The position numbers and the translations under genes are program-made. The notes beneath the pieces were generated by a model, which was not told the DNA's origin, ran no database searches, and saw only the letters and a program-made list of their open reading frames with translations. A DNA stretch of 64,000 nt from Pseudarthrobacter siccitolerans (lineage in GTDB: Bacteria > Actinomycetota > Actinomycetes > Actinomycetales > Micrococcaceae), in assembly GCF_030823375.1 (NCBI RefSeq), contig NZ_JAUSXB010000001.1:1-64000 (forward strand), given 5' to 3'. Position 1 is the first letter of the stretch, and each line of letters opens with the position of its first letter. Positions 5,604-34,728 of the stretch are shown here, piece after piece.

Positions 5604-5722
5604 GGTTACGGCGGTCATAGCGTGGGGGAAACGCCCGGTCCCATTCCGAACCCGGAAGCTAAGACCCACAGCGCCGATGGTACTGCACCCGGGAGGGTGT
5701 GGGAGAGTAGGTCACCGCCGGA
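5604..5722 (+). rRNA. rrf: 5S ribosomal RNA
   Basis: 5S rRNA of about 119 bases. It begins GTTACGGCGGTCATAGCG and ends GTCACCGCCGGAC, and these two arms pair. The conserved internal segments CCGAACCCGGAAGCTAAG and TGGTACTGCACCCGGGAGGG are present. It is the last gene of the rRNA operon and is followed after about 10 bases by a strong hairpin. Confidence 0.96.
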
Positions 5723-5732
5723 CATAAATTAA

Positions 5733-5771
5733 AGAGTAGGGCCCTGACAAACGACGTCAGGGCCCTACTCT
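5733..5771 (+). terminator. rRNA operon terminator
   Basis: A perfect 16-bp stem (5733-5748 with 5756-5771, arm AGAGTAGGGCCCTGAC) with a 7-base loop. It starts about 10 bases after 5S and is followed by a short T-containing stretch. This is the expected intrinsic terminator of the rrn transcript. Confidence 0.9.
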
Positions 5772-5795: not shown

Positions 5796-5891
5796 ACGCC
5801 CCAACACCTCCCGCACCCATCCAGGGAACGCCCCATCACCTCCCGCACCGATCCGGGGGGCGCCCCATCACCTTCTCAGCGTTCCGCGACC
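5796..5891 (+). repeat. 32-bp-period tandem repeat, three direct units
   Basis: Three units begin exactly 32 bases apart at 5796, 5828 and 5860. Each opens with a core close to ACGCCCCATCACCT; the first has one changed base in the core (CCAACA) and the third diverges after the first 15 bases. The tract begins 24 bases after the rRNA terminator. The same core with the same 32-base period recurs inverted at 5904-5999 and directly at 34665-34728. It is unassigned to any known element. Confidence 0.8.
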
Positions 5892-5903
5892 CCCGCAGCA
5901 GCA

Positions 5904-5999
5904 CCGTCCAATCCCGCCGGCAACTGATGGAGCGTTGCTCCAAAACCCGCAGGGCCTGATGGCGCGTCGCCTCAAAACCTGCAGGAGGTGATGGGGCGT
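5904..5999 (-). repeat. 32-bp-period tandem repeat, three inverted units
   Basis: Read on the minus strand, units start at 5999, 5967 and 5935, again exactly 32 bases apart, with cores ACGCCCCATCACC, ACGCGCCATCAGG and ACGCTCCATCAGT. Together with 5796-5891 this makes two opposed triplets, so the transcript or single-stranded DNA could fold into a large imperfect stem. No coding potential is seen. Confidence 0.8.
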
Positions 6000-6187: not shown

Positions 6188-8170
6188 ATGGCTGAGCACA
6201 ACGGCGGCAACCGCGGCGGGAATGACCGCGGCGGGTTCCGCGGACACAACAACTCAGGCGGCGAGCCCCGCGGATTCCGGTCCCGCACCAACCGGGACAA
6301 CTCCGATCCCTCCAGGGGTGCAGCCGGTGGCGGAGAGCGGAAGCCTTTCGGTGACCGCGACAAGAAGCCTTTTGGTGACCGTCCGCGCCGCGAGGGCGAG
6401 GGCGATCGTCGTGGTTTTGGTGGAGGAGAGCGTAAGCCGTTCGGGGACCGCGACAGGAAGCCTTTTGGTGACCGGGACAACCGGTCCGCTGGTGACCGTC
6501 CGCGCCGCGAAGGCGAGGGCGATCGTCGTGGTTTTGGTGGAGGAGAGCGTAAGCCGTTCGGGGACCGCGACAGGAGGCCTTTTGGTGACCGGGACAACCG
6601 GTCCGCTGGTGACCGTCCGCGCCGGGACGGTGAAGGTGACCGCAGGGGTTTTGGTGGTGGAGAGCGGAAGCCGTTCGGTGACCGTGACCGTAAGCCTTTC
6701 GGTGACCGTCCGCGCCGTGACGGCGAGGGTGACCGTCGTGGTTTTGGTGGTGGAGAGCGGAAGCCGTTCGGGGACCGCGACAGGAAGCCTTTTGGTGATC
6801 GCGACAACCGGTCCGCGGGTGACCGTCCGCGCCGCGATGGCGAGGGTGACCGTCGTGGTTTTGGTGGTGGAGAGCGGAAGCCGTTCGGGGACCGCGACAG
6901 GAAGCCTTATGGTGACCGTCCGCGCCGGGACGGTGAAGGTGACCGCCGGGGCTTTGGTGGCGGAGAAAACCGCAAGCCGTTTGGTGACCGCAGCGAACGT
7001 CCAAGCAGCGACCGTCCCAGCCGCGGCGATGCTGGTCCCCGCACCTTCGGTCGCGACCGCCAGGAAGAACGCCCGGCCCGTGTACCCAACATGCGCGACC
7101 TCCGCAGTGCCAACCGTCCCGACCGGGAACGGTCTCCGGAGATCGACGAGGATGTCACGGGCAAGGAGCTTGACCGTGCCACACAGCACCAGATCAAAAC
7201 CCTTGAGGCAAACAACGCGGAATGGGTCGCCCGCCACCTCGTGATGGCCGGCCGCCTCATCGACGACGAGCCCGAGCTCGCCTTCCAGCACGCGCTGGCC
7301 GCCAGCCGGCGCGGCGGCAGGCTTGCTGCCGTCCGCGAAGCCGTAGGCCTCACCGCCTACGCGGCCGGTCACTACGGCGAGGCACTTCGGGAATTCCGGA
7401 CGTACCGCCGGATCAGCGGCTCCAACGTGCACCTGCCCGTGATGGCCGACTGTGAACGTGGGCTGGGCCGCCCCGACCGCGCACTCGACGTGGTCCGCTC
7501 CGAGGAAGCCCAGGACCTGGACGCCCCCGGCAAGGTTGAACTTGCCATTGTTGCAGCGGGCGCACGCACGGACCTTGGCCAGCTGGACGCCGCTGTTGCA
7601 GAACTGGAGATCGCACAGTTGGATATCAACCGCGCGTTCTCCTACAGCCCCCGGCTCTTCCGCGCCTATGCAGACGCACTGGCGGCCGTGGGCCGCACCT
7701 CCGAGGCCGAGAAGTGGCAGAAACAGGCCGTTGTAGCCGAAAACGCACTGGGCCTGGGCGTTGACGAAGAACCCGACATCATTGACCTTGGCTGGGACGA
7801 GGAAGAAGAAGCCCGCGAGGAGGCCGAGCGGCGCCGGCTCCTGGACCGCGCGTCCAGCGCGTCCGGTGCAGCCGCAACGGCACCTGCTGCCGCTGAAGCT
7901 TCCGCTGCACCCACAGAGGCTTCAACCGCAGATGCTGCAACCACGGACGCTGCCGGCACCGAGGCACTGGAAGCGCCCGCAGCCGAAGAAACGGTGGACG
8001 CAAGCATCGATGACCAGGAAGCGGACTACTTCGTTTCAGATGACGCTGAGTCTGACGAGGACTCGGTAGAGCTCGACGATCTGGACCAGAACGGAGAAGA
8101 CCTGGCGGAAGCCAACGATCCAGAGGACCAGCAGGACCAGCAGGACCACCAGGATCGCCGGGAAGACTAA
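6188..8170 (+). CDS. RG/GD-rich tandem-repeat protein with TPR-like domain (Rv1691-type)
   Basis: A 660-residue protein of unknown biochemical function. The start ATG at 6188 is chosen because AGGAGG lies just upstream and homologous proteins begin near this point. Residues 1-268 are a disordered, very basic region rich in Gly, Arg and Asp. From residue 67 it consists of near-identical units of 39 or 31 residues containing RRGFGGGERKPFGDR. Residues about 327-548 form an alpha-helical TPR-like region (for example AFQHALAASRRGG and YGEALREFRTYRR). The tail from about 556 is highly acidic, with Ala/Thr-rich and DQQDQQDHQD runs. The neighbours (HAD phosphatase, small protein, tlyA) match the Rv1691-Rv1694 order of mycobacteria. 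An RNA-binding or ribosome-linked role is an inference from the RG-rich domain and from the rRNA operon and rRNA methyltransferase alongside. Confidence 0.85.
   Translation: MAEHNGGNRGGNDRGGFRGHNNSGGEPRGFRSRTNRDNSDPSRGAAGGGERKPFGDRDKKPFGDRPRREGEGDRRGFGGGERKPFGDRDRKPFGDRDNRSAGDRPRREGEGDRRGFGGGERKPFGDRDRRPFGDRDNRSAGDRPRRDGEGDRRGFGGGERKPFGDRDRKPFGDRPRRDGEGDRRGFGGGERKPFGDRDRKPFGDRDNRSAGDRPRRDGEGDRRGFGGGERKPFGDRDRKPYGDRPRRDGEGDRRGFGGGENRKPFGDRSERPSSDRPSRGDAGPRTFGRDRQEERPARVPNMRDLRSANRPDRERSPEIDEDVTGKELDRATQHQIKTLEANNAEWVARHLVMAGRLIDDEPELAFQHALAASRRGGRLAAVREAVGLTAYAAGHYGEALREFRTYRRISGSNVHLPVMADCERGLGRPDRALDVVRSEEAQDLDAPGKVELAIVAAGARTDLGQLDAAVAELEIAQLDINRAFSYSPRLFRAYADALAAVGRTSEAEKWQKQAVVAENALGLGVDEEPDIIDLGWDEEEEAREEAERRRLLDRASSASGAAATAPAAAEASAAPTEASTADAATTDAAGTEALEAPAAEETVDASIDDQEADYFVSDDAESDEDSVELDDLDQNGEDLAEANDPEDQQDQQDHQDRRED
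6386..6991 (+). repeat. in-frame coding tandem repeats (117 and 93 bp)
   Basis: The DNA encodes five full units of 39, 39, 31, 39 and 31 residues (117 or 93 bp) plus a partial sixth. The short units lack an eight-residue block, DNRSAGDR. Units are nearly identical at nucleotide level, including silent positions, which suggests recent duplication or gene conversion and a copy number likely to vary between strains. Confidence 0.85.
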
Positions 8171-34664: not shown

Positions 34665-34728
34665 ACGCGCCATCACTTCCGGCATCAATCTGGGCAACGC
34701 GCCATCACTTCAGGAACTTTGACGTCCT
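34665..34728 (+). repeat. 32-bp-period repeat, two direct units after tRNA-Pro
   Basis: Cores ACGCGCCATCACTTC begin at 34665 and 34697, exactly 32 bases apart. They share the core and the period with the arrays at 5796-5999. The second unit contains the stop codon of the glycosylase gene (TCA at 34705-34707 on the plus strand), so the repeat reaches into the 3' end of a coding sequence. Confidence 0.8.

Follow-up and report, generated by a model that had tools for sequence, protein, structure and literature searches.

Introduction

To our knowledge, REP-associated tyrosine transposases (RAYTs) are the only dedicated enzymes known for small dispersed bacterial repeats. Repetitive extragenic palindromes (REPs) and their paired forms (REPINs) are described, in the part of PMC2817692 considered here, as dispersed, intergenic, palindromic or paired, and lineage-specific, with inverted copies of its own repeat on either side of the RAYT gene. 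Here we analyse a 32-bp-phased repeat element at positions 5796–5999 of the first 64,000 nucleotides of contig NZ_JAUSXB010000001.1 from Pseudarthrobacter siccitolerans (this whole stretch is hereafter the window). Probably, if only by a little, the element is a copy, dispersed and without a gene, of a two-part, homing-like repeat–nuclease system, whose repeats come in sequence ‘dialects’ that largely agree with the allele of an AbiEi-like/DUF559 nuclease gene.

As in the REP/RAYT arrangement, the enzyme gene lies between two inverted copies of the repeat (35 of 40 genes), although the enzyme is a different one, joining an AbiEi-like part to a DUF559/VSR-fold domain in place of a Y1 transposase, and the repeat has no GTAG tag. 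Unlike REPs, the present repeats form 32-bp-phased direct arrays and, at a single fixed site, differ wholesale in dialect between genomes. The nuclease shares the catalytic fold of VSR and of the EDxHD homing endonuclease I-Bth0305I; in contrast to the latter, its gene sits between genome-dispersed repeats, and in no intron or intein. Its N-terminal part matches the profile of AbiEi antitoxins of type IV toxin-antitoxin systems, and differs from them in being fused to a nuclease domain.

In having short motifs that are specific to a lineage, stand at gene ends and are often inverted, the repeat also resembles CGTC-tagged REPs, the dialects of the DNA uptake sequence (DUS) and BOX. The DUS dialects of Neisseria are short, lineage-specific and located at gene ends, and pneumococcal BOX has internal tandem units in variable number; we know of no DUF559 nuclease linked to CGTC REPs, DUS or BOX. 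In the present repeat, roughly every second unit has CGTC on its minus strand (G at position 0 in 48%), and CGTC is thus not a fixed tag. The CGTC REPs reportedly have no dedicated transposase, and Arthrobacter is not mentioned in the portion of PMC3733652 used here. Arthrobacter livingstonensis is named once in a palindrome-count table within the excerpt of PMC12306157 considered, so such palindromes may be counted there.

The element in the window

The window belongs to the 4.50-Mb genome G000 (genomes, contigs and loci are cited by G, C and L numbers). Its element consists of six 32-bp units, three facing inward on each side at an exact 32-base step. All six were re-found where the original prediction, made from the letters of the window, had placed them, and unit 1 does begin 24 bases past the terminator, whose inverted repeat ends at 5771. 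The core said to be common to the six units is exact (ACGCNCCATCA) in four and carries one mismatch each at 5796 (ACGCCCCAACA) and 5860 (GCGCCCCATCA). The features are as follows.

5607–5723: 5S rRNA
5733–5771, + strand: inverted repeat of the rRNA terminator, before the element; 16-bp arms, 100% complementary
5796–5827, + strand: + array, 32-bp unit 1, core with one mismatch
5828–5859, + strand: + array, 32-bp unit 2
5860–5870, + strand: closing core of the + array, one mismatch
5925–5935, − strand: closing core of the − array
5936–5967, − strand: − array, 32-bp unit 2
5968–5999, − strand: − array, unit 1 (outermost), 32 bp
34665–34707, + strand: second element of the same family, one 32-bp unit and a closing core

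The core occurs 14 times in the window at up to one mismatch, against 5.7 expected, a count equalled in 0 of 100 shuffles. A convergent formamidopyrimidine-DNA glycosylase gene (fpg; Pfam PF06831, PF01149) overlaps the second element with its stop codon; on the other side, the element has as its neighbour a tRNA gene with a terminator-like hairpin, identified by eye. Pairing of the two triplets into a large fold, as had been suggested, is possible (fold z of −3.7 as RNA and −4.3 as DNA). Several arrays in G000 have a single arm, however; such a two-armed fold is therefore not general, and was ruled out as the defining structure.

The unit profile (87 + 47 units) shows the core, a T at position 14, GC at 18–19 and a T-/A-rich stretch at 24–26, and contains no GTAG-type tetranucleotide tag; in the final units of arrays, conservation fades past about position 19. 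A period of 32 bp is approximately three helical turns, and apart from this phase nothing specific speaks for the nucleoid or topology site that had been considered. Between + and − arrays, close to the − array, a second motif like GCGGCAGCACCGCCGTCGAACCCC recurs, with the appearance of a small hairpin (window 5893–5915, also L037, L039, L144, L150, L151 and L153).

Distribution across the genome and the genus

In G000, the core (ACGCnCCATCA; ACGCNCCATCA) is present 63 + 62 times (125), against 2 + 2 (4) for the reversed pattern, and core pairs at a 32-base step, with up to three mismatches, number 49 + 56 against 0. The cores lie mostly in 32-bp intergenic arrays, with 3′ ends favoured. No array overlaps a called gene, either among the 47 in the fetched G000 stretches or among the 155 from all loci, a set in which a few loci are counted twice and from which L055, L069, L103 and L127, of unrelated taxa, are excluded. 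Read in the array’s own direction, the neighbouring genes of these 155 are convergent in 56 cases, tandem in 88 and divergent in 11, versus 12, 45 and 24 for background gaps of at least 60 bp in 20 evenly spaced G000 stretches. At three rRNA operon ends, located via the arrays, an element stands directly behind the terminator.

A scan for exact pairs in the genomes of named species gave 92 stretches, and 76 of 80 among the matches listed belong to Arthrobacter, Pseudarthrobacter or Paenarthrobacter. The letters at core positions 7–8 define the dialect; pairs of the CA type are found in 15 of 295 genomes of the host family. With the core generalised to ACSCNCNNTCA, 32-step pairs appear in 106 of 121 genus genomes, with up to 159 + 178 in one, whereas the reversed pattern matches in two genomes of the 121 only (3 times in one and once in the other). 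Each genome has its own dominant dialect among the matches listed: CA in G000, CC in G321, TC in G363, GC in G353 and G334, GG/GC in G340, and GC with a G at core position 5 in G344. The core is thus far over chance and the step is kept genus-wide, and the suggestion of a dispersed repeat family is borne out at both levels; chance or a local oddity was ruled out by the window shuffles, the genome-wide counts and the genus-wide conservation. The read-through control that had also been proposed would suit the bias towards 3′ ends. The nuclease gene and the strain-specific dialects lie beyond the window, and the original interpretation is partly supported.

Where + and − arrays lie close together in G000, the + array is on the left and the units face inward. 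The outward order (− left of +) was noted in a few pairs (G340 C3:49768–49897 and C3:336042–336203; G334 C47:75271–75368). In G334, the genome richest in pairs, a whole element with its flank is repeated in tandem at a 184-bp step (L255, C10:118365–118889). Two arrays of G000 lie within two copies of a ~325-bp non-coding block, inside a ribosomal protein gene cluster whose genes were named by eye (L044, C1:1371760–1372400), and the region C1:2540000–4430000 is CA-poor, with 5 clusters against about 30 in the remaining 2.5 Mb, among the matches listed. CA units, for example at window 5827–5842, often read ATCACCTCC(T), which we take to be similar to the 3′ end of 16S rRNA; this is probably coincidence, because other units and dialects diverge at those positions.

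A CRISPR array was rejected, as spacer parts inside one array are often near-identical, with common conserved positions, and not unique. Nor was CRISPR-like polarity seen: mean core mismatches by position, counted from either end, gave no consistent gradient in 30 arrays of at least three units. In a screen of the neighbouring genes, the 15 largest protein clusters are recurrent orthologous neighbours, and the eight neighbour proteins scanned, ino1 among them, are encoded by metabolic, transport or phosphatase genes. The simple gene caller used in this screen overlooked the nuclease open reading frame (ORF) adjoining ino1. In the window, the next gene past the element (6188–8167, + strand) encodes a 660-residue protein whose N-terminus is long, repetitive and RGG/GDR-rich, for which a Pfam scan at E 0.01 gave no match.

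One site, different dialects

The convergent gap between hemA and thiF was compared in 30 genomes, which are the best DNA matches of the 121 and not a random sample, with forms called by reading. All 30 carry an element. In 20 it is a 32-bp array (TC in 10, CA in 5, GC in 4 and CC in 1), and in the other 10 a single compact hairpin, TTGCTCTATCAGATATGG... or a variant of it (TA), which is also dispersed across array-poor genomes. Mapped onto a tree built from the adjacent coding DNA, the form changes 15 times (minimum 4; shuffled mean 16.3; 48 of 200 shuffles as low). The hemA form therefore ignores host phylogeny, and sister genomes carry unlike forms. Genomes G324 and G316 are 94.4% identical across 198 kb aligned, yet differ completely at hemA and at the ino1 (inositol-1-phosphate synthase) gap.

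No clean empty site was found in the pairs compared: G324/G316 show replacement instead of insertion, and in G297/G319 one site is common to both while the other query was unaligned in the fetched stretch. At the tRNA/fpg gap of the window, G000 alone has the element, which is absent by eye in 25 others with a readable junction (29 fetched). Covariation outside the core of the hemA hairpin, which the pattern used recovered in 17 of the 20 array genomes, did not reach significance (267 of 2000 shuffles scored as high), and no T-run was seen behind the hemA-site hairpins by eye, without a terminator scan.

The preference for convergent gaps and 3′ ends over divergent gaps, the strict 32-bp phase, and the positions immediately past three rRNA terminators (found through the arrays) would suit phased protein-binding sites that serve the cell, as a roadblock, insulator or terminator at gene ends. 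DUF559 or another protein would bind them, and their dialect would be held by selection at each site and not by copying. This is one of the two main rival explanations, and we consider it unlikely: each specificity change would require selection to rewrite many sites, and the wholly unlike forms in genomes as close as G324 and G316, the lack of the element at the tRNA/fpg gap in neighbouring species and the invariant catalytic residues of the nuclease all count against it.

A nuclease gene between two elements

Comparison of G324 and G316 revealed an ORF in the ino1 gap that lies between two elements, with CA arrays around one allele in G324 and compact TA hairpins around another in G316. G000 has two such genes, gene 1 (C1:1305626–1306576) with CA arrays, the dialect of the window, on either side, and gene 2 (C1:3033859–3034809) with TC arrays on either side. 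Of the 30 genomes, 22 carry the gene at ino1, in surroundings of dialect TA (9), GC (7), CA (3) or TC (3); in G300 it is truncated, with elements on one side only. The remaining eight have TC arrays at ino1, and all eight have a close relative of the gene elsewhere. A MerR-like gene, recognised by eye, was observed at ino1 in four of the six TC-array genomes viewed (L307, L310, L312, L326). Damaged nuclease genes were also noted (L333, L344, L354), being truncated/fused in G300, frameshifted in G361 and split in G363.

The predicted protein combines an AbiEi-like N-terminal part, based on profile matches, with a C-terminal DUF559 nuclease domain. Residues E207, D239, D252, H255 and H256, candidates for the EDxHD motif, are invariant. 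A profile search of 26 genomes gave 29 matches, the weakest at E 3.3e-122, and two fragments (1.6e-87 and 1.0e-82), with further DUF559 proteins beginning at E 1.9e-78. The neighbours of the nuclease at the ino1 site are other genes, and a toxin gene was not looked for systematically.

The second main rival is an AbiEi-like regulator, for which the flanking repeats would be its own operators and the dispersed copies a regulon or decoys, with the nuclease acting elsewhere, for example in defence. In the part of PMC7319586 considered, members of the AbiEi family are described as binding tandem or inverted repeats, and its antitoxins as binding tandem inverted repeats in their own promoters, which fits the profile match of the N-terminal part. 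The elements, however, stand behind the gene too, lie mostly at 3′ ends and are scarce in divergent (promoter) gaps, and we regard this explanation as distinctly improbable.

The same layout, with an enzyme gene between inverted copies of a dispersed intergenic palindrome, could also point to a REP/REPIN family mobilised by a RAYT, as far as the relevant part of PMC2817692 describes such families. None of 30 genomes, of which 15 were array-rich and the other 15 free of 32-step pairs, had the RAYT Y1 domain (PF01797), whereas the same search was positive in 5 of 14 control genomes. Given also a unit profile without GTAG, we attach hardly any weight to a RAYT.

Coupling of nuclease and dialect

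A quick tree, with Shimodaira–Hasegawa-like approximate likelihood ratio test (SH-aLRT) support only, was built from 40 proteins. These comprise the products of all ino1-gap genes but the truncated one of G300 (21 of 22) and 19 others, leaving out both G361 matches, G289 and the two profile-search fragments. On this tree the flanking dialect changes 6 times (minimum 5; shuffled mean 22.7; 0 of 200 as low). TC alone takes 3 changes, with the TC label of G352 read by eye from degenerate units. A branch with a support of 100 separates the array-type dialects (26 proteins) from compact TA and from one more hairpin type, ACGCGGGGTCAC. The majority of flanks agree in 39 of 40 genes, a figure that is circular because the labels derive from the flanks; the tree is the test. 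A matching core lies within 500 bp on both sides in the 35 of 40 genes cited above (the second G000 gene being mapped to a very similar G346 locus), while among 117 ordinary G000 genes a CA core lies on some side of 4 and on both sides of 0.

Flanking repeats travel with the gene, and a distant site is therefore more informative. In G000, G324 and G316, some 120 kb separate the hemA site from ino1. The dialect at hemA is that of a close-family gene of the same genome in 23 of 30 cases; shuffles averaged 8.8 and reached 19 at most, with none of 100000 as high. This agreement is uncorrected for relatedness, though the hemA form is unclustered on the host tree, and the ino1 gene is the sole known gene in 14 of the 30. 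After removal of genomes with two genes or a damaged gene, the agreement is 20 of 26. Proteins of the array clade occur, with G300, G361 and G289 judged without the tree, in 20 of 22 array-bearing genomes (not in G315 and G321) and in 0 of 4 array-free ones. The genome-wide dominant dialect equals the flanking dialect in G000, G252, G334, G340, G344, G353 and G363, and not in G177 and G321.

Part of this pattern could come from ordinary miniature elements if some transposase moved them and the nuclease were a passenger whose dialect correlation arose by linkage only. The gene and its flanks are indeed physically linked, and 7 of 30 genomes are discordant at the distant site. Nevertheless, 23 of 30 agree ~120 kb away, dialect tracks the protein tree across differing gene locations, and hairpins flank more distant DUF559 genes as well, on both sides; a passenger nuclease is accordingly a poor candidate, in our estimate a shade less probable even than the regulator. 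A homing-like repeat–nuclease system, for its part, meets contrary evidence. It predicts a second matching gene in each of the seven genomes whose hemA and ino1 dialects differ, and one is present in G346 only; G177, G300, G315, G308, G380 and G331 are without it. Furthermore, G385 has a CC element at hemA and a TC-type gene. The coupling of nuclease and dialect is, with these exceptions, well supported.

The wider DUF559 family

Flanking hairpins were also sought at 20 DUF559 genes that are more distant. Perfect stems of 10 bp or longer stand on either side of 17 of them, a count without a chance control, and the stems are of other sequence types (CCCAACTAGGTAGCGC..., CATCGATTGCTCCGTA...). 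A common word of at least 14 bases is present upstream and downstream in 13 of the 20, versus 85 of 378 mismatched pairs. From these stems and words, the association between this protein family and hairpins at its gene flanks seems to extend beyond the 32-bp arrays. The long hairpins of other types flank distant DUF559 genes at L364–L383, L355, L358 and L361–L363, and in some cases one type stands both upstream and downstream.

Discussion

The repeat and the nuclease together look like a selfish repeat system, and we infer that it works like REP/RAYT with an unrelated enzyme, in a homing-like manner. Its first part consists of two facing cores, ACGCnC[NN]TCA, which in most cases enclose a short hairpin and whose arms are lengthened outward by 32-bp units; it lies in intergenic positions and mostly at 3′ ends. 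The second is the AbiEi-like/DUF559 nuclease gene between two elements of its own dialect. The N-terminal part of the protein may read the core, with positions 7–8 as the dialect, and the 32-bp step may reflect proteins stacked along one face of the DNA. The nuclease would nick or cut resident gene-end hairpins, and repair off another copy would overwrite the site with the resident dialect. Such a process would spread and homogenise the elements, and a new nuclease allele would lead to dialect replacement.

A bolder formulation, to which we give somewhat less than even credence, is a new class of system in which the nuclease allele reads a two-letter dialect and converts resident gene-end hairpins in place. 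Repeat populations would then be swapped wholesale upon nuclease allele exchange between species, and the system would be widespread in Arthrobacter-like bacteria, perhaps further. A single nuclease clade with an extra C-terminal tail would have expanded the simple hairpin to phased arrays of 32-bp units.

In the openly licensed literature, we found no described pair of repeat and enzyme to which this repeat or this nuclease would belong, which does not prove priority. Titles and abstract openings of that literature held nothing on the repeat or on its link to a nuclease, which does not show absence from print.

If the proposed system is real, it would be a second, unrelated pairing of enzyme and repeat, and such logic would have arisen more than once. 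It would also give a role to many unexplained AbiEi-like/DUF559 genes. The dialects CA, TC, GC, GG and TA, with their recognition domains, offer natural matched sets from which a specificity code may be read. Finally, the long-standing question of how the likeness of short repeats is kept up across a genome becomes testable, because G000 and G346 each hold two nuclease–dialect pairs.
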